From a virus, in the IMG/VR virus record IMGVR_UViG_3300031972_002589, positions 1-27,277 of that record: a stretch of DNA of 27,277 nt. One strand, given 5' to 3'. Each line of letters begins with the position of its first letter. Position 1 is the first letter of the stretch. Of the stretch, positions 4,494-27,211 are shown in pieces. The translations under genes and the position numbers were made by a program. The notes below the pieces were generated by a model. The model was given only the letters and a program-made list of their open reading frames with translations. It was not told the origin of the DNA and made no database searches.

Positions 4494-4862
4494 TCACGCC
4501 GCGGCAGGCAGCTTGGGAGGTCGGCCGCGGCGCGGGGGCGGGTCCTCCGCGCTCTCCCCCGCCTCGGGATGCGGGAAGGACAGGAAGGCCATGGCGCCGG
4601 CCCGGATCATCTCCGCTTCGGAGAGGCACCGGAACCGGATCACGCCCTCGGACAGGGATTCGGCGACCACGGCCGTCACCTGCAGCCCCTTGCCGAGGTT
4701 GGCGAAGATCAGGACGACGTCGTCCACCCGCAGCTTGACCGTTGCCCCGCGCCAGTACTCCGGCTTGGAGACGATCGAGGCCTCGTCGTCGGTCTGGTAG
4801 ATCCAGACGCCGACGCGCGACGTATGGCCGACGGACACAAGGTCGGTGATGCGAAAAGGCAT
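4494..4862 (-). CDS. Hypothetical phage protein with C-terminal AT-hook-like motif
   Basis: The product has 122 residues, starting MPFRITDLVSVGHTSRVGVW. No enzyme family is recognised. The first 100 residues look like a compact alpha/beta domain (VKLRVDDVVLIFANLGKG). Residues 111-117, RRGRPPK, fit the AT-hook core (basic-G-R-P-basic) and follow an acidic, Pro-rich linker. The gene sits between the head accessory gene and tail tube A, nine bases before the latter, so a virion or assembly role is likely. The AT-hook reading is by motif only, and short basic tails can match by chance. Confidence 0.65.
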   Translation of the reverse strand: MPFRITDLVSVGHTSRVGVWIYQTDDEASIVSKPEYWRGATVKLRVDDVVLIFANLGKGLQVTAVVAESLSEGVIRFRCLSEAEMIRAGAMAFLSFPHPEAGESAEDPPPRRGRPPKLPAAA

Positions 4863-5615: not shown

Positions 5616-6458
5616 TCAGGTCGGCAGCGCCGCGGTGTCGTCCACGCGGATCTCGACCACGCCCGTGCCGTCGATCAGGCAGGCGCCCATCGACATCATG
5701 TTGTTGACCAGGAAGGCCGCGAGCGTGTTCTCGTAGGTGATCACGGTCTGCACCTGCGAGCCGTAGGCCATGCCGCAGGAATCGTGGTGCCAGATGTAGC
5801 AGTCACGATCGTCGGAGCTCGCCAGGGGCAGGCCGGTGTGCATCACCCAGTTGACGCCCAGCCACCGCTTGGGAAGCTGGCCGGTCTGGTAGGGCAGCGA
5901 GTCCGGCCCGACCTTGTCCGCGTCCTGGAACTCGTCGTAGGTCATGAGATGCGCCCAGGCGTTGGGGCTGACCGCGCCCCAGAGCATCCCGTCGTTGGGG
6001 ACATCGTTGCTGTAGAGGGTATCCAGGGCGCTCAGGATGAGGTTCCGGGTGATGCCGGTGGAGTAGTCCCCGACGAACAGCGACGTCTGCGACAGCGCGT
6101 TGTCGATGATGAAGCTGTCGGCGGTGCGCCCGAGGGCAAAGGCCCCGTTGCGGACCACAACAGACCGCTCGTCGTGGTAGATCTTGAGCTCGTCGAGCTT
6201 GTCGATCGTGTCCGCGGCGTAGCGGTCGTTCAGCACGCACTCCACGGGAGTGTGGCTGATGTTCATCAGCGGCACCTGCCCGCCGCGGGTTTTCGGCGCG
6301 GCCGTGCCCTTGCCGGAGACGGGGAAGGTCGTGGACTTGCCGGTGATCGGACCCTTCGTCCGAACCCCCTGCATGAGAAGGGCGCCCTGTCGCTGGAAGG
6401 CGACATGCACCTCGGACTCGTACTGACGTACGAAGACGTCATCGATATCGACGGACAT
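5616..6458 (-). CDS. Major capsid protein
   Basis: The product has 280 residues, starting MSVDIDDVFVRQYESEVHVA. It is a HK97-fold capsid protein of the podovirus type. An early 'F..EV...FQ..GALL...VRTK....G.S..FPV.GKG.A..' segment is followed by NISHTPVECVLNDRYAADTI and a C-terminal ENTLAAFLVNNMMSMGACLI. The length is somewhat short for the family. The start is preceded by AGAAGGA, a good ribosome binding site about 9 nt away. It is separated from the scaffold genes by a terminator and a leader of about 200 nt, which suggests its own expression control. Confidence 0.88.
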   Translation of the reverse strand: MSVDIDDVFVRQYESEVHVAFQRQGALLMQGVRTKGPITGKSTTFPVSGKGTAAPKTRGGQVPLMNISHTPVECVLNDRYAADTIDKLDELKIYHDERSVVVRNGAFALGRTADSFIIDNALSQTSLFVGDYSTGITRNLILSALDTLYSNDVPNDGMLWGAVSPNAWAHLMTYDEFQDADKVGPDSLPYQTGQLPKRWLGVNWVMHTGLPLASSDDRDCYIWHHDSCGMAYGSQVQTVITYENTLAAFLVNNMMSMGACLIDGTGVVEIRVDDTAALPT

Positions 6459-10235: not shown

Positions 10236-11600
10236 TCAGCGGAAGTGGCGGTACGCGGTCTGAGCGCGGGCGGCCGGCGGCACCGTCTTCGGTCGCGTGA
10301 CCAGCTGCGGGAAGAGCTCCGTGAGCCCCCAGACCAGCGCATCGACGCGGTCGGGTGAAACGCCGCCGGCAAGGCCCGTGACTGGATCGAACTGGCACAT
10401 CTGGTCTTCGAGGGCCGGCAGCGAACCGACGTGATGCACCCTGCCCTGCTCGTAGAGCGCGGATATCGGCTCAGCCCGAACGGCCTTGCCGCGCGTCGCC
10501 CGGACCTTGATGACCGGGACGGTCGGGCGGACGGACCGGATGACGGACTCGACCATGTCGCCGCCCTGGTTCACCTCGGCAACGATCGCGTCGGCATCGA
10601 GCCTGTCGAAGAGCGCGACAGCCCGGCGCGCCCAGCCGTCCGGCCCCTCGCTGCAGGAGGCGTCCTCGAGGACATACCCTTGGCGATCGTCACCAAGCCC
10701 GGTTCCGATAATTCCCGTCTCGCCCGCCCCCTCGCCCGTGGAGGCAGCCGGGTCTATGGCCACGATCACGCGGCGCAAGGTCGGAACGTCGTCCTCACCC
10801 TTGCGCAGTTCGTCGATGCGAGCCCGGCGCCACAGAGCGCCCGGCATGTCGTCCAGGATCTCGGCTGCCAACTCCTGCCTGCCGAGCCGCGTCCCCTCGT
10901 ACCGGGTGATGACGCTGTCGAAGAAGGCAGCCGCCAGATTGCTGCGGTTGTCGTAGGTGCTGCCTCGCGTCGTCACCGTGCGCGGGTCGCTCATGATCTG
11001 CCGCAGCACAGCCAGGGGGCGCGGCGTCGTCGTGATCACCTGGCGCGGATTGTCTCCGAGACGAAGCCCGAACTGCAGCTGATCCCAGGTCTCCTGCACG
11101 TAGCGCCACTTCGCCAGCTCGTCGCACCAAGCGGCGTCGTGCTGCGGCCCGCGCAACTGGTCTGGCTCGACCGCGTTGTACAGCGTCGCCACGGCTCCGT
11201 TTGGCCATGTCAGCCGCCGTTTCGATGGCTCGTAAAGCGGCCGGAAGTCCAGAGGATGAACCGCCAGGATGCCGCTCTCGCCCTCCACCATGACATCTCG
11301 CGCGTCGGCGGCCGTCTCCGCCACCAGGGCAATCCTGCCGTAGCGGCCACGGCCGAGGGGCGTGCCCCCGCTAGCCCAGGCGCGGACCATCTCCGCACCC
11401 GTGCGCGTCTTGCCGAAGCCTCGGCCGGCGAGGATCAGCCACGTGACCCAATCGCCCGCCGGCTCCTGCTGTGACGGCCGGCCCCAGAAGCGCCAGTCGG
11501 TCAGTAGCTCAGCGGCCTGCACCTCCGTCAGACCCGCCAGAGCCGCCTTGCGGTCCGTTTCGCTCAGCGAGGCGAGTGATTCTGCCAGCGAGGATGTCAA
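10236..11600 (-). CDS. terL: Terminase large subunit (ATPase/nuclease)
   Basis: The product has 454 residues and drives DNA packaging and cutting. Residues 51-67 (WVTWLILAGRGFGKTRT) hold the Walker A motif (G59-T65). D160-E161 in AAWCDELAKW is the Walker B/catalytic Glu pair, and QVITTTPRP is the coupling motif. The nuclease domain shows the three acidic sites: AIDPAAST, AEVNQGGD and RVDALVWGL. This matches the COG5323-type large terminases typical of alphaproteobacterial phages. The start is TTG at 11600, with GGAGG about 12 nt upstream and a stop codon three codons before. It overlaps the small-subunit gene by 92 nt. Homologues begin with a similar SLAESLASL-like helix, which supports this start. 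Confidence 0.93.
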   Translation of the reverse strand: MTSSLAESLASLSETDRKAALAGLTEVQAAELLTDWRFWGRPSQQEPAGDWVTWLILAGRGFGKTRTGAEMVRAWASGGTPLGRGRYGRIALVAETAADARDVMVEGESGILAVHPLDFRPLYEPSKRRLTWPNGAVATLYNAVEPDQLRGPQHDAAWCDELAKWRYVQETWDQLQFGLRLGDNPRQVITTTPRPLAVLRQIMSDPRTVTTRGSTYDNRSNLAAAFFDSVITRYEGTRLGRQELAAEILDDMPGALWRRARIDELRKGEDDVPTLRRVIVAIDPAASTGEGAGETGIIGTGLGDDRQGYVLEDASCSEGPDGWARRAVALFDRLDADAIVAEVNQGGDMVESVIRSVRPTVPVIKVRATRGKAVRAEPISALYEQGRVHHVGSLPALEDQMCQFDPVTGLAGGVSPDRVDALVWGLTELFPQLVTRPKTVPPAARAQTAYRHFR

Positions 11601-23886: not shown

Positions 23887-23915
23887 ATAGTGCGACTGTC
23901 GCACCATCGCGTCAA
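23887..23915 (-). promoter_or_regulatory. Leftward early promoter with perfect 15-bp operator
   Basis: On the minus strand TTGACG (23915-23910), a 17-nt spacer and CACTAT (23892-23887) form a promoter. The perfect palindrome GTGCGACTGTCGCAC (23890-23904; 7-bp arms around one base) overlaps the -10 and the spacer. The same 15 bases occur at 24406-24420 in an equivalent place, so a common repressor should block both promoters. Confidence 0.75.
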
Positions 23916-23932
23916 TAGGGAAGGTGCGGTGC

Positions 23933-23957
23933 TCGCTCTGAGCGATGAATGTCGCTC
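23933..23957. promoter_or_regulatory. Second, different palindrome (TCGCTC-T-GAGCGA)
   Basis: TCGCTC T GAGCGA (23933-23945) is a perfect 6-1-6 palindrome. A further TCGCTC at 23952-23957 gives an alternative pairing with the middle arm. It lies just upstream of the repressor promoter and differs from the 15-bp operator, so it may bind another regulator or the same one with lower affinity. Confidence 0.5.
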
Positions 23958-23961
23958 GCAA

Positions 23962-23967
23962 TATCAT
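23962..23967 (+). promoter_or_regulatory. -10 element of the repressor gene (leaderless)
   Basis: TATCAT lies six bases before the repressor ATG. No convincing -35 element is placed upstream, as for an activated promoter. Since no Shine-Dalgarno sequence is present, transcription from here would give a leaderless mRNA. Confidence 0.45.
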
Positions 23968-23973
23968 GCGGAC

Positions 23974-24327
23974 ATGGCAAGGATTGGTCGACAGACACGC
24001 ACGACGAGGGCGCGCCACTGCCTACGCGAGTGGCGCATCTATCGCAACCTGACCCAAGACGGCCTGGCCGAACGAATGCAGGCCATCATGGGCAGCGAGA
24101 CCTTCGACCGATCGCGGATCTCGAAGTTCGAGAACGGTCACGAAGGCCTGCGCGAAGCCTTGCTCTACGCGTTCGCGGAAGCGCTGAGCATCGAGCCGGG
24201 TTGGCTCTTCGTCCACCCAGAGATCCTGATGCGCGAGCGGGAAGCCCTCACAATTCTAGGTAACCGCCCACCGGAGCAGATCCGCGCCGTCCTCACTGCG
24301 CTGGACACCCTCAGCAAGGCAAGCTGA
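23974..24327 (+). CDS. CI-like repressor, HTH only
   Basis: The product has 117 residues, starting MARIGRQTRTTRARHCLREW. The XRE-type HTH spans about residues 20-65: REWRIYRNLTQDGLAERMQA, then DRSRISKFENGHEGLREALL, with ALSIEPGWLF after it. It has no C-terminal LexA/CI peptidase (S24) domain, so it cannot be self-cleaved after RecA activation. Induction must use another route. Longer versions of this frame start upstream in the operator region and were rejected. It faces the Cro-like gene, so it is the prophage repressor by position and fold. Confidence 0.82.
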   Translation: MARIGRQTRTTRARHCLREWRIYRNLTQDGLAERMQAIMGSETFDRSRISKFENGHEGLREALLYAFAEALSIEPGWLFVHPEILMREREALTILGNRPPEQIRAVLTALDTLSKAS

Positions 24328-24338
24328 CCTCCGGCGTC

Positions 24339-24385
24339 GTGCGGGCTGCCGCACTCTGACGCAGGCAAACGTGCGAAGGCCGCAC
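24339..24385. promoter_or_regulatory. Two further GTGCG...CGCAC palindromes
   Basis: GTGCGGGCTGCCGCAC (24339-24354) and GTGCGAAGGCCGCAC (24371-24385) share the outer half-sites of the 15-bp operator at 24406. Centre-to-centre spacings are about 32 and 35 bp. They could be weaker operators of a three-site array. The second is followed by TTTT on the plus strand, so it could also be a short terminator for the repressor gene. Confidence 0.5.
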
Positions 24386-24393
24386 TTTTCCGC

Positions 24394-24423
24394 TTGACCG
24401 GATAGGTGCGACTGTCGCACTAT
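24394..24423 (+). promoter_or_regulatory. Rightward promoter with perfect 15-bp operator
   Basis: TTGACC (24394-24399), an 18-nt spacer and CACTAT (24418-24423) precede the rightward operon. The palindrome GTGCGACTGTCGCAC (24406-24420) overlaps the spacer and -10, exactly as at the leftward promoter. Confidence 0.72.
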
Positions 24424-24847: not shown

Positions 24848-25265
24848 GGCCTTCATCCTCACCGCGCGGGATCTCGCCGCTTACCGCCGTCGGCTGCGGC
24901 CGCTGTCGCCAGAGCGCATCACCGCCGCCGTCGAGACACCCGTCGAGCTGCTGTTCGGCGACCCGCGCCGGCCGATCCGTCCGTGGGTCGAGTTGACGGT
25001 GCGGGCGACCGTGTCGGCGGAGGCTGACGATATCAAGGAATGGCGCGTCGACAGCATCGAGACGTGGGTACCGAACGGCTGGGGCGGCCAGTGGGCACCC
25101 GTCGGCGCGCATTCGCCGTGGGGCGACGAGCGCCGCCTGTTCGCGATGATCGAGGCCGCCTGCTGCGACGAGAACGAGAAGTTTGCCGCCGACGCCCTGG
25201 CCGCGCTCCGCAAGGAAGCGGCGACGCGGAGGAGCGTGGCCAACATGAGGAGTGCTGCGGAATGA
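24840..25265 (+). CDS. Hypothetical protein
   Basis: The product has 141 residues, starting MAEAFILTARDLAAYRRRLR. It is compact alpha/beta, with PRRPIRPWVELTVRATVSAE and WRVDSIETWVPNGWGGQWAP, and a helical C-terminus with RRLFAMIEAACCDENEKFAA. It overlaps the previous gene by 8 nt and the next by ATGA. The function is unknown. Confidence 0.7.
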   Translation: MAEAFILTARDLAAYRRRLRPLSPERITAAVETPVELLFGDPRRPIRPWVELTVRATVSAEADDIKEWRVDSIETWVPNGWGGQWAPVGAHSPWGDERRLFAMIEAACCDENEKFAADALAALRKEAATRRSVANMRSAAE

Positions 25266-26266
25266 ACCACGGGATGAAGGCAAAGACGATCAAGGCCGTG
25301 CTGCGGCGGAAGGTCGATGCGTGGCTGGCGTCCATCGAAGACGAGGGTCTGCGCGCTGCCTGCAAGCGAGACGCCATCGTTACCGGCGGCAGCATCGCCA
25401 GCATGTTGATCGGTGAGAAGGTTGCCGACTTCGACGTCTACTTCCGATCCTACGAGACGGCTGTGGCAGTCGCCAAGCACTACGCGGCCGAGTTCGACAA
25501 GCGCCGGCAGCGGCGTGACGGCGTCCCGATCCCGATCACCGTTCAGGAGATGACGGACGTCCGGGGAGAGCGACGCGTCCGCATCGTCGTGAAGTCGGCC
25601 GGGGTCGAAACGCAGGACGGCGAAGCTGACTACACCTACTTCGAATCGCAGCCGGACGAGGCTGCCGGGGAATACGTCTCCGAGGTCTACGACAACCCGG
25701 GAGAGATCGCCGATCTGGTCGAGACGACGGCCGCCGCTGTTCGCGAGACGCAGCAGGCGCCGGACTATCGGCCGGTCTTCCTCAGCAGCAACGCGATCAT
25801 GCTGTCCGGCAAGGTACAGCTGATCCTGCGGTTCTATGGCGAGCCGGACGAGATCCACGCCAACTACGACTTCACCCACTGCACCAACTACTGGAGCAGC
25901 CATTCCGGCACCCTGGTGCTTCGGCCCGAGGCACTTCAAGCGCTGCTGGCGCGCACCCTGGTCTATCAGGGTAGCCGCTATCCGGTGTGCAGCCTGTTTC
26001 GCCTGCGGAAGTTCATCGCGCGGGGCTGGCGCGTGAATGCCGGCCAGATCCTCAAGATTGCGATGCAGGTGTCCGACCTGGACCTGAGCAAGATCGACGT
26101 CCTGGAAGACCAGTTGACCGGGGTCGACGCGGCTTACTTCGCGCAGGTGCTGGAGCGCTGCCGCGAGAAAGGTGGCGACCGCATCGAGTCCGCGTACCTC
26201 GTCGAGATCATCGACCGGATGTTCGGGGAGATCCAGAAGCCGGGCGCCCAGGGGGCTGCGGAATGA
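25262..26266 (+). CDS. Predicted nucleotidyltransferase-fold phage protein
   Basis: The product has 334 residues, starting MNHGMKAKTIKAVLRRKVDA. Residues 40-61 (VTGGSIASMLIGEKVADFDV) show the polymerase-beta superfamily signature: GGS at 42-44 and two metal-binding Asp at 56 and 58 (DFDVYF). Later blocks, such as VRIVVKSAGV and LRFYGEPDEIHANYDFTHCT, then YPVCSLFRLRKFIARGW and VNAGQILKIA, recur in phage proteins of this type as I recall them. The substrate is not known. Polymerase-beta-fold enzymes of this size transfer nucleotides to RNA, DNA, protein or small molecules. In this operon it would be expressed on lytic induction. Confidence 0.78.
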   Translation: MNHGMKAKTIKAVLRRKVDAWLASIEDEGLRAACKRDAIVTGGSIASMLIGEKVADFDVYFRSYETAVAVAKHYAAEFDKRRQRRDGVPIPITVQEMTDVRGERRVRIVVKSAGVETQDGEADYTYFESQPDEAAGEYVSEVYDNPGEIADLVETTAAAVRETQQAPDYRPVFLSSNAIMLSGKVQLILRFYGEPDEIHANYDFTHCTNYWSSHSGTLVLRPEALQALLARTLVYQGSRYPVCSLFRLRKFIARGWRVNAGQILKIAMQVSDLDLSKIDVLEDQLTGVDAAYFAQVLERCREKGGDRIESAYLVEIIDRMFGEIQKPGAQGAAE

Positions 26267-26553
26267 CCATCAGCATCGAACAGGCGCGGAAGATCGTGGC
26301 CGCAGCGGATCATGTGAACGTTGTTCACAGAGCAATTCAGGCCCTCAAGGGCGGTGACGTGTTCAGGCACGGGAGCGGGGATGGCATCAGCGCCCTGATG
26401 GGCGGCGAAGTCTCTCTTGCGGTCTCCTCGGCCCTCCGTGTGGACCGAATGGGCCTTGAGGCGCGGATCAAGACCGAGGTGCGGGCGTGGGTCTCTACCG
26501 CTCGGGCGGAGGCCGAGGCCGAGCTTCGCGCCGCACAGGAGACCGCGGAATGA
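26263..26553 (+). CDS. Hypothetical helical protein
   Basis: The product has 96 residues, starting MTISIEQARKIVAAADHVNV, with a Gly-rich middle (GDVFRHGSGDGISALMGGEV). The C-terminus is an Ala/Glu/Arg coiled-coil-like helix (AWVSTARAEAEAELRAAQET). ATGA overlaps connect it with the nucleotidyltransferase-fold gene and the next gene. No family is recognised. Confidence 0.65.
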   Translation: MTISIEQARKIVAAADHVNVVHRAIQALKGGDVFRHGSGDGISALMGGEVSLAVSSALRVDRMGLEARIKTEVRAWVSTARAEAEAELRAAQETAE

Positions 26554-26957
26554 CCGCCTTCAATCTCGACCCGGCCCGGTACGAGGGGCACACGGCAGCA
26601 CTGCAGCGGAGCCCGACGGCGAAGAGGGGCCTGACGATCCTGGATGCGCGCGGGTACGCAGTGGCCCGCGTTCTCTCCCGCATCAACCTCATTGAGGAGC
26701 AGGCGAACGGCAACCTCTTCTCCGACACCCCGCAGATCCTCGCCGAAGCGCTTCGGCTCAAGGCGGAGAACGAGCGGCTCAAGGAAAAGTCGGCCGCGGA
26801 CTGGAGCGATGTTGCTTCGCGGCTTCTGGCGGCGGCCGATGAGATTGAGCGGCTCAAGGCGGAGAACGAGCGGCTGCGGGAGACAGTGGCGTGGCACGAA
26901 ATATACCTGCGCCGACGCCTAGGTGCGTCTCCGCCGGCAAGCGAGCCGCAGCCATGA
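26550..26957 (+). CDS. Hypothetical coiled-coil protein with repeated zipper
   Basis: The product has 135 residues, starting MTAFNLDPARYEGHTAALQR. An N-terminal part (TAKRGLTILDARGYAVARVL) is followed by two copies of the leucine-zipper sequence RLKAENERL, at about residues 69-77 and 101-109. They are separated by DWSDVASRLLAAADEIE. The copies are encoded by a 26-bp direct repeat, so a duplication made the second zipper. It probably oligomerises. The function is unknown. Confidence 0.68.
   Translation: MTAFNLDPARYEGHTAALQRSPTAKRGLTILDARGYAVARVLSRINLIEEQANGNLFSDTPQILAEALRLKAENERLKEKSAADWSDVASRLLAAADEIERLKAENERLRETVAWHEIYLRRRLGASPPASEPQP
26754..26875 (+). repeat. 26-bp direct repeat encoding the duplicated zipper
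   Basis: Two identical 26-bp copies start at 26754 and 26850 (96 bp apart) and begin CGGCTCAAGGCGGAGAACGA. The distance is a multiple of three, so both are read in the same frame. Confidence 0.92.
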
Positions 26958-27211
26958 TCCCCCGCGCCCACGCCCACGCCGTCGCGGCCGAGTGCCGCCG
27001 GATGCTGGCAAGCGACGAGCGGACCACGCTGGTTCGGCTCACGCTCGCGATGCTGGCGCAGAGCGACGACGAGGCCATCCGCCGCGATGCCGAACGGACC
27101 CTCGCGCTGTGGCCCGAGGCGAGACAGGTCGGGGAAGTCGTCGAGTTCGAGTTTCGACGCAGGAAGATCAACCCGCCGGTACAGCCGGCTGATGGAGGGG
27201 ATGTGGCGTGA
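26954..27211 (+). CDS. Hypothetical helical protein
   Basis: The product has 85 residues from the ATG at 26954 (ATGA overlap), starting MIPRAHAHAVAAECRRMLAS. The helical part contains RTTLVRLTLAMLAQSDDEAI. The end carries a basic strand-like segment (VVEFEFRRRKINPPVQPADG). An earlier in-frame ATG at 26891 overlaps the coiled-coil gene and was rejected. The function is unknown. Confidence 0.6.
   Translation: MIPRAHAHAVAAECRRMLASDERTTLVRLTLAMLAQSDDEAIRRDAERTLALWPEARQVGEVVEFEFRRRKINPPVQPADGGDVA

Follow-up and report, generated by a model that had tools for sequence, protein, structure and literature searches.

A putative two-armed immunity switch with one predicted operator specificity in a temperate-phage contig

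Overview of the predicted switch

The window, which is the whole of a 27,277-base IMG/VR record, very probably carries a temperate-phage immunity switch whose topology mirrors the OL/OR arrangement of lambda and which has one predicted operator specificity on both arms. At its center is a small XRE-type repressor gene flanked by two exact copies of a perfect 15-letter palindrome, GTGCGACTGTCGCAC, the left and right clusters being separated by 516 bp (Table 1). The original prediction of an identical 15-mer at these two places is borne out exactly, and a scan of the rest of the genome, likewise suggested there, returned only these two exact copies and no third across the whole record. Each copy also overlaps the -10 element of an outward promoter with TTGAC, a 17-18-nt spacer and CACTAT, just as had been read earlier, and the overlap amounts to three bases of the -10 in the left and right promoters alike.

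In the mechanism that we propose, the 117-aa HTH repressor and the divergent 70-aa Cro-like protein would read one palindrome. In the prophage, the repressor would fill the operator pairs and keep RNA polymerase off both early promoters, so that cro and the replication, packaging and structural genes would be shut on the left, while the small early genes, the recombination genes and probably an integrase beyond the contig end would be shut on the right. Repressor bound at O_L2 may additionally promote its own leaderless mRNA, as in the case of lambda PRM, and Cro on the same sites would counter this self-activation.

Table 1. Positions of the predicted components of the switch and of its right arm in the window.
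Feature	Position	Strand	Remarks
Cro-like HTH protein, 70 aa	23667-23879	-	Pfam HTH_31, E 9.6e-9; recognition helix HRTRVSRY
P_cro, predicted promoter	23887-23915	-	TTGACG (23915-23910), 17 nt, CACTAT (23892-23887); then 7 nt to cro ATG
O_L1, candidate operator	23890-23904	no strand	GTGCGACTGTCGCAC; overlaps the leftward (cro) -10
O_L2, predicted second left operator	23924-23938	no strand	GTGCGGTGCTCGCTC; 34 bp from O_L1, from the spacing rule of the relatives
-10 of the repressor promoter, predicted	23962-23967	+	TATCAT; 6 nt before ATG; leaderless mRNA predicted
Putative repressor, CI-like XRE protein, 117 aa	23974-24327	+	354-bp CDS; HTH only; recognition helix DRSRISKF
Possible third right site, 16 bp	24339-24354	no strand	GTGCGGGCTGCCGCAC; half-site pattern
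O_R2, candidate operator	24371-24385	no strand	GTGCGAAGGCCGCAC; precedes O_R1 by 35 bp and lies just before the -35
P_R, predicted promoter	24394-24423	+	TTGACC (24394-24399), 18 nt, CACTAT (24418-24423); 25-nt leader after the -10
O_R1, candidate operator	24406-24420	no strand	GTGCGACTGTCGCAC; overlaps the rightward -10
First right-arm gene, 132 aa	24449-24847	+	no family match
Second right-arm gene, 141 aa	24840-25265	+	no family match
phrog_4400 family protein, nucleotidyltransferase-like	25262-26266	+	58.7% identical to NYA-2014a SUFP_060, same arm
Further small right-arm ORFs	26260-27211	+	contig end at 27277

Operators and promoters in the window

The half-site pattern GTGCG-N5-CGCAC occurs in the window at the two GTGCGACTGTCGCAC sites and at 24371 and nowhere else, and its N6 version at 24339 only. 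Allowing one mismatch adds the site at 23924 and a single one at 10978, the latter being the only site of this pattern to fall outside the switch. Since the additional matches, which the original prediction had not named, stand 34 bp upstream on the left and 35 bp upstream on the right, each arm would possess an operator pair, with O1 at the -10 and O2 upstream of the -35. When the window was shuffled 100 times with dinucleotides preserved, no repeated 7+1+7 palindrome arose, and the shared-palindrome score of the left and right regions stands at 33.7 for the real pair against 19.0 +/- 2.4 for shuffles. A wider palindrome, GAGCGA-N6-TCGCTC, is additionally present at 23940-23957, between O_L2 and the repressor -10; it is absent from the right arm.

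CACTAT agrees with TATAAT at only three of the six positions, a poor sigma-70 match, and a consensus-based promoter and terminator scan listed neither kind of element at the switch. As the promoters are weak by consensus, relatives were used to judge them: the offset of the operator center from the -10 is equal on the two arms of a locus, namely -4.5/-4.5 in the window and L026, -5.5/-5.5 in L031 and L042, and -6/-6 in L005. In 16 of 18 loci a -10-like hexamer precedes the repressor ATG by 6-7 nt, while a Shine-Dalgarno-like motif was detected upstream of neither cI nor cro in any of the 18; the proximity of the -10 to the ATG, taken together with the lack of a Shine-Dalgarno, leads us to predict that both divergent mRNAs are leaderless. 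The start codons of cro and the repressor (23879 and 23974 in the window) come 4-7 nt after a -10-like hexamer, and likewise in most of the 18 loci. The center of O_L2 precedes the start predicted for the leaderless repressor mRNA by 43 bp; this is close to the place of lambda OR2, which lies at about -42 from PRM and from which CI activates that promoter, and it makes autoactivation of the repressor from O_L2 plausible.

The half-site pairs at 24339 and 24371 could instead be terminators of the repressor gene, which would leave the two exact 15-mers as the only operators. Both lie just after the repressor stop codon, and GTGCG-AAGGC-CGCAC followed by TTTT might form a 5-bp hairpin; however, the folding is no better than that of shuffles (z -0.42), the terminator scan was empty, and other loci, with other palindromes, also have a second site at 33-35 bp. 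We accordingly view the terminator reading as rather unlikely, with a dual role of these pairs as operator and terminator being possible.

Conservation of the two-armed plan across related loci

The collections searched held no near relative of this contig: single-sequence searches of viral contigs with the repressor and Cro gave no match, nor did the exact 18-mer, and an initial phrog_4400 query against genome contigs was similarly negative. Distant relatives were gathered through the primase (L005), the phrog_4400 protein (Sulfitobacter phage NYA-2014a), the repressor and the operator letters (L140). The repressor route gave Rhizobium phages together with 24 viral loci and 8 genome loci; the loci taken in through the primase were L005 and L006, of which the first gave a paired switch.

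Most of the approximately 35 related loci scanned share the plan, with about ten different palindromes between them, such as TATGCGCATACGTATA in front of both arms of L005 and ACTGAATTTCAGT or GTAACA-type palindromes at both arms in the Rhizobium phages. About one third of the scanned loci are without a significant operator pair, some because their gene insertions are wider or their homology more remote. Over the 30 dereplicated loci, left and right operators of the same locus reach a summed score of 657.8 as against 597.4 for the best permutation (none of 20,000 attains the observed value), although the loci are related to different degrees and the counts are thus not fully independent. A second site 33-35 bp upstream is the top secondary match in 18 of 24 arms from among 96 offsets tried, the reference for four right arms being the downstream member of an already seen pair. 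The distances are comparably constrained: in about ten operator classes, O1 is separated by 17-19 bp from the start codon of cro and by 75-79 bp from that of the repressor, with the CTGAA class having mostly about 69-71 bp to the repressor and an operator nearer the -35. Taken together, the within-locus matching in about 30 loci, the phasing, the pairs and the helix co-variation described below strongly support the earlier proposal that both arms are under one operator specificity.

L005 also displays, at 2763-2890 and directly downstream of its cro-like gene, five CCGCAAG-type palindromic repeats spaced 22-33 bp apart; these are unrelated in sequence to the switch operators and perhaps constitute an origin or the array of a second regulator.

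The paired clusters on either side of the repressor gene in most loci would also be consistent with the two clusters acting chiefly via repressor-mediated DNA looping. Nevertheless, no family model detects an oligomerisation domain in the repressor, and the distance between the clusters varies from about 0.46 to 1.5 kb across loci; we therefore assign looping a low probability as the principal mode of action.

The repressor and Cro proteins

Beyond its HTH, the 117-aa repressor has no C-terminal RecA-dependent self-cleavage domain that family models can recognize, and no solved structure matches it by sequence. Given that none was detected, induction might proceed through an antirepressor or by simple dilution. 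The recognition helices of CI and Cro are more alike within loci than between them (8 of 100,000 permutations across nine classes, using helix windows picked by hand from the alignments), and this co-variation suggests that both proteins probably read the same operator sites. The site preference of the repressor relative to Cro, like the leaderless starts and the autoactivation, is something that we infer from the sequences.

Another arrangement would have the sites belong mainly to Cro or another regulator, with the 117-aa XRE protein having a different target and not being the maintenance repressor. In its favor, both proteins are small HTH proteins with roles assigned by position, and a C-terminal cleavage domain is found in neither; yet the within-locus co-variation of the CI and Cro helices, along with a gene order like that of phage 16-3 and the annotated Rhizobium phages, renders it quite improbable.

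Recurrence of the operator letters in other contigs

L140 was recovered by the operator letters alone (GTGCGACNGTCGCAC), and its HTH genes lie at distances of 17 and 77 bp from that site; downstream of the repressor gene it also has GTGCAAAGTCGGCAC and GTGCGAAGTTAGCAC with a 35-bp spacing, so that the whole geometry is present. Its recognition helices differ from those of the window despite the same operator, a point against the proposed reading. That the repeated palindrome of the window is a chance product of a GC-rich genome and has no regulatory role is hardly conceivable: GC-rich palindromes are indeed common, and a degenerate form of the 15-mer is present on 90 stretches of viral contigs, mostly as single copies, but comparison with relatives already refutes this idea, with the shuffles, the within-locus matching, the fixed distances, the recurring second sites and the geometry of L140 all standing against it.

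Two further deployments of these letters were observed. In the segment 6102-6560 of L140 (reverse complement coordinates) a third palindrome of the same type, GTGCGCTTCTCGCAC, lies at 6170 over the predicted repressor promoter, which suggests negative autoregulation in that phage. In L153 (IMGVR_UViG_3300046694_000202) and in L135 and L181 (IMGVR_UViG_3300047445_000153), GTGCGACNGTCGCAC is present in nine copies scattered along 7 kb of one contig and in four copies in another, with two of them lying 36 bp from each other; this is a different, dispersed use of the same palindrome.

Gene content of the right arm

The contig ends before any integrase is reached. However, among 20 related records searched for the integrase domain PF00589, 14 gave a match (one of them below the curated cut-off), and in every one of these the integrase is co-directional with the repressor and the right arm, 3-9 kb downstream, with three of the records needing their ends joined for this placement. 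Recombination genes are likewise found on the right arm of relatives, with an ERF in RHph_I1_23 and an SSB in NYA-2014a. The phrog_4400 family occurs in both temperate and large phages, some of which annotate it as a tRNA nucleotidyltransferase. The original prediction had held that the rightward genes would be lytic or early-lytic functions and not lysogenic ones; this fails in view of the integrase lying on that arm in the related records, and does not follow from the layout, as the PL arms of lambda and 16-3 carry int. The right-arm genes are best called putative repressor-controlled early genes of the PL type, with a mixture of lytic and lysogenic functions.

Significance of the conserved geometry

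While this kind of two-armed switch is already known, the shape of the version in the window differs in that there is no C-terminal domain, the pairs are 33-35 bp apart, the two predicted leaderless divergent genes are about 95 bp apart, and the distances are frozen under changing letters. We consider it about as likely as not that the window represents a minimal kind of two-armed switch that is widespread among alphaproteobacterial phages and has so far gone undescribed. In this class, repressors of 95-117 aa would lack a C-terminal domain, the cro and cI mRNAs would be leaderless and start about 95 bp from each other, each arm would have a 33-35-bp operator pair, and the geometry would stay frozen while the operator letters and the CI/Cro helices change together. 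The literature searched, drawn mainly from outside the subscription journals, contained no description of such a class.

These observations suggest that the operators of anonymous temperate phages might be readable from geometry alone: starting from a divergent HTH pair, one would search 18 bp from cro and a further 34 bp on, and would afterwards seek that palindrome again on the downstream side of the repressor. Such a rule would yield immunity specificities, early promoters and the boundary between the arms without experiment. Moreover, the loci form a naturally occurring collection of repressor, Cro and operator combinations differing in their letters, which would be useful for examining how the specificities of two proteins and at least four sites can change in concert.

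Comparison with known switches

In lambda, both early promoters carry related palindromes that are recognized by the repressor and by Cro, with three operators per arm about 24 bp apart, and OL-OR looping spans 2.4 kb. Its cI mRNA is leaderless and its cro mRNA has a leader, CI carries a RecA-responsive C-terminal domain, and int sits on the PL arm. The window departs from lambda in having predicted operators 34 and 35 bp apart rather than about 24 bp, a different cI-cro spacing, and a repressor of 117 aa with an HTH only and no self-cleavage domain. Nonetheless, several features of the lambda and 16-3 type are discernible in it, namely outward predicted promoters flanking the repressor gene, the same candidate operator on both sides, more than one predicted operator per arm, and a divergent Cro-like gene heading the replication arm.

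Sulfitobacter phage NYA-2014a (KM233261) shares the gene order, including a right arm with a phrog_4400 homologue and an SSB, and its integrase adjoins this arm across the record ends. It differs in its palindrome, TTAGAC-N4-GTCTAA at both arms, which is unlike that of the window, and in its right-hand sites being 29 bp apart. In this phage (L007 4463-4690), the annotated plus-strand gene SUFP_049 overlaps a better, unannotated Cro-like frame on the opposite strand; that leftward frame starts at 4690, 95 bp from a repressor ATG at 4785, and the annotated repressor start at 4731 is probably too far upstream. The Rhizobium phages RHph_I1_23, RHph_Y1_10 and RHph_N2 have a homologous repressor (36 and 28% identical), cro upstream and paired palindromes, and the right arm ends in an integrase in the first two; they diverge from the window in their extra opposite-strand genes between the repressor and the right arm and in their palindromes.

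For Rhizobium phage 16-3, another phage with a two-armed operator switch, we used the annotated record NC_011103 along with PMC12429752. Its operator starts are 17 bp (OL) and 26 bp (OR) apart, as against 34 and 35 bp in the window, its repressor CDS is 792 bp as against 354 bp, its operator letters are different and its map is in the opposite orientation. Yet immC of 16-3, like the window, has a repressor gene between two outward early promoters; it has annotated OL1 and OL2 at PL and OR1 and OR2 at PR, paralleling the more than one operator per arm predicted in the window; its PL arm, the counterpart of the right arm of the window, leads to xis and int; and both phages are associated with an alphaproteobacterial host.
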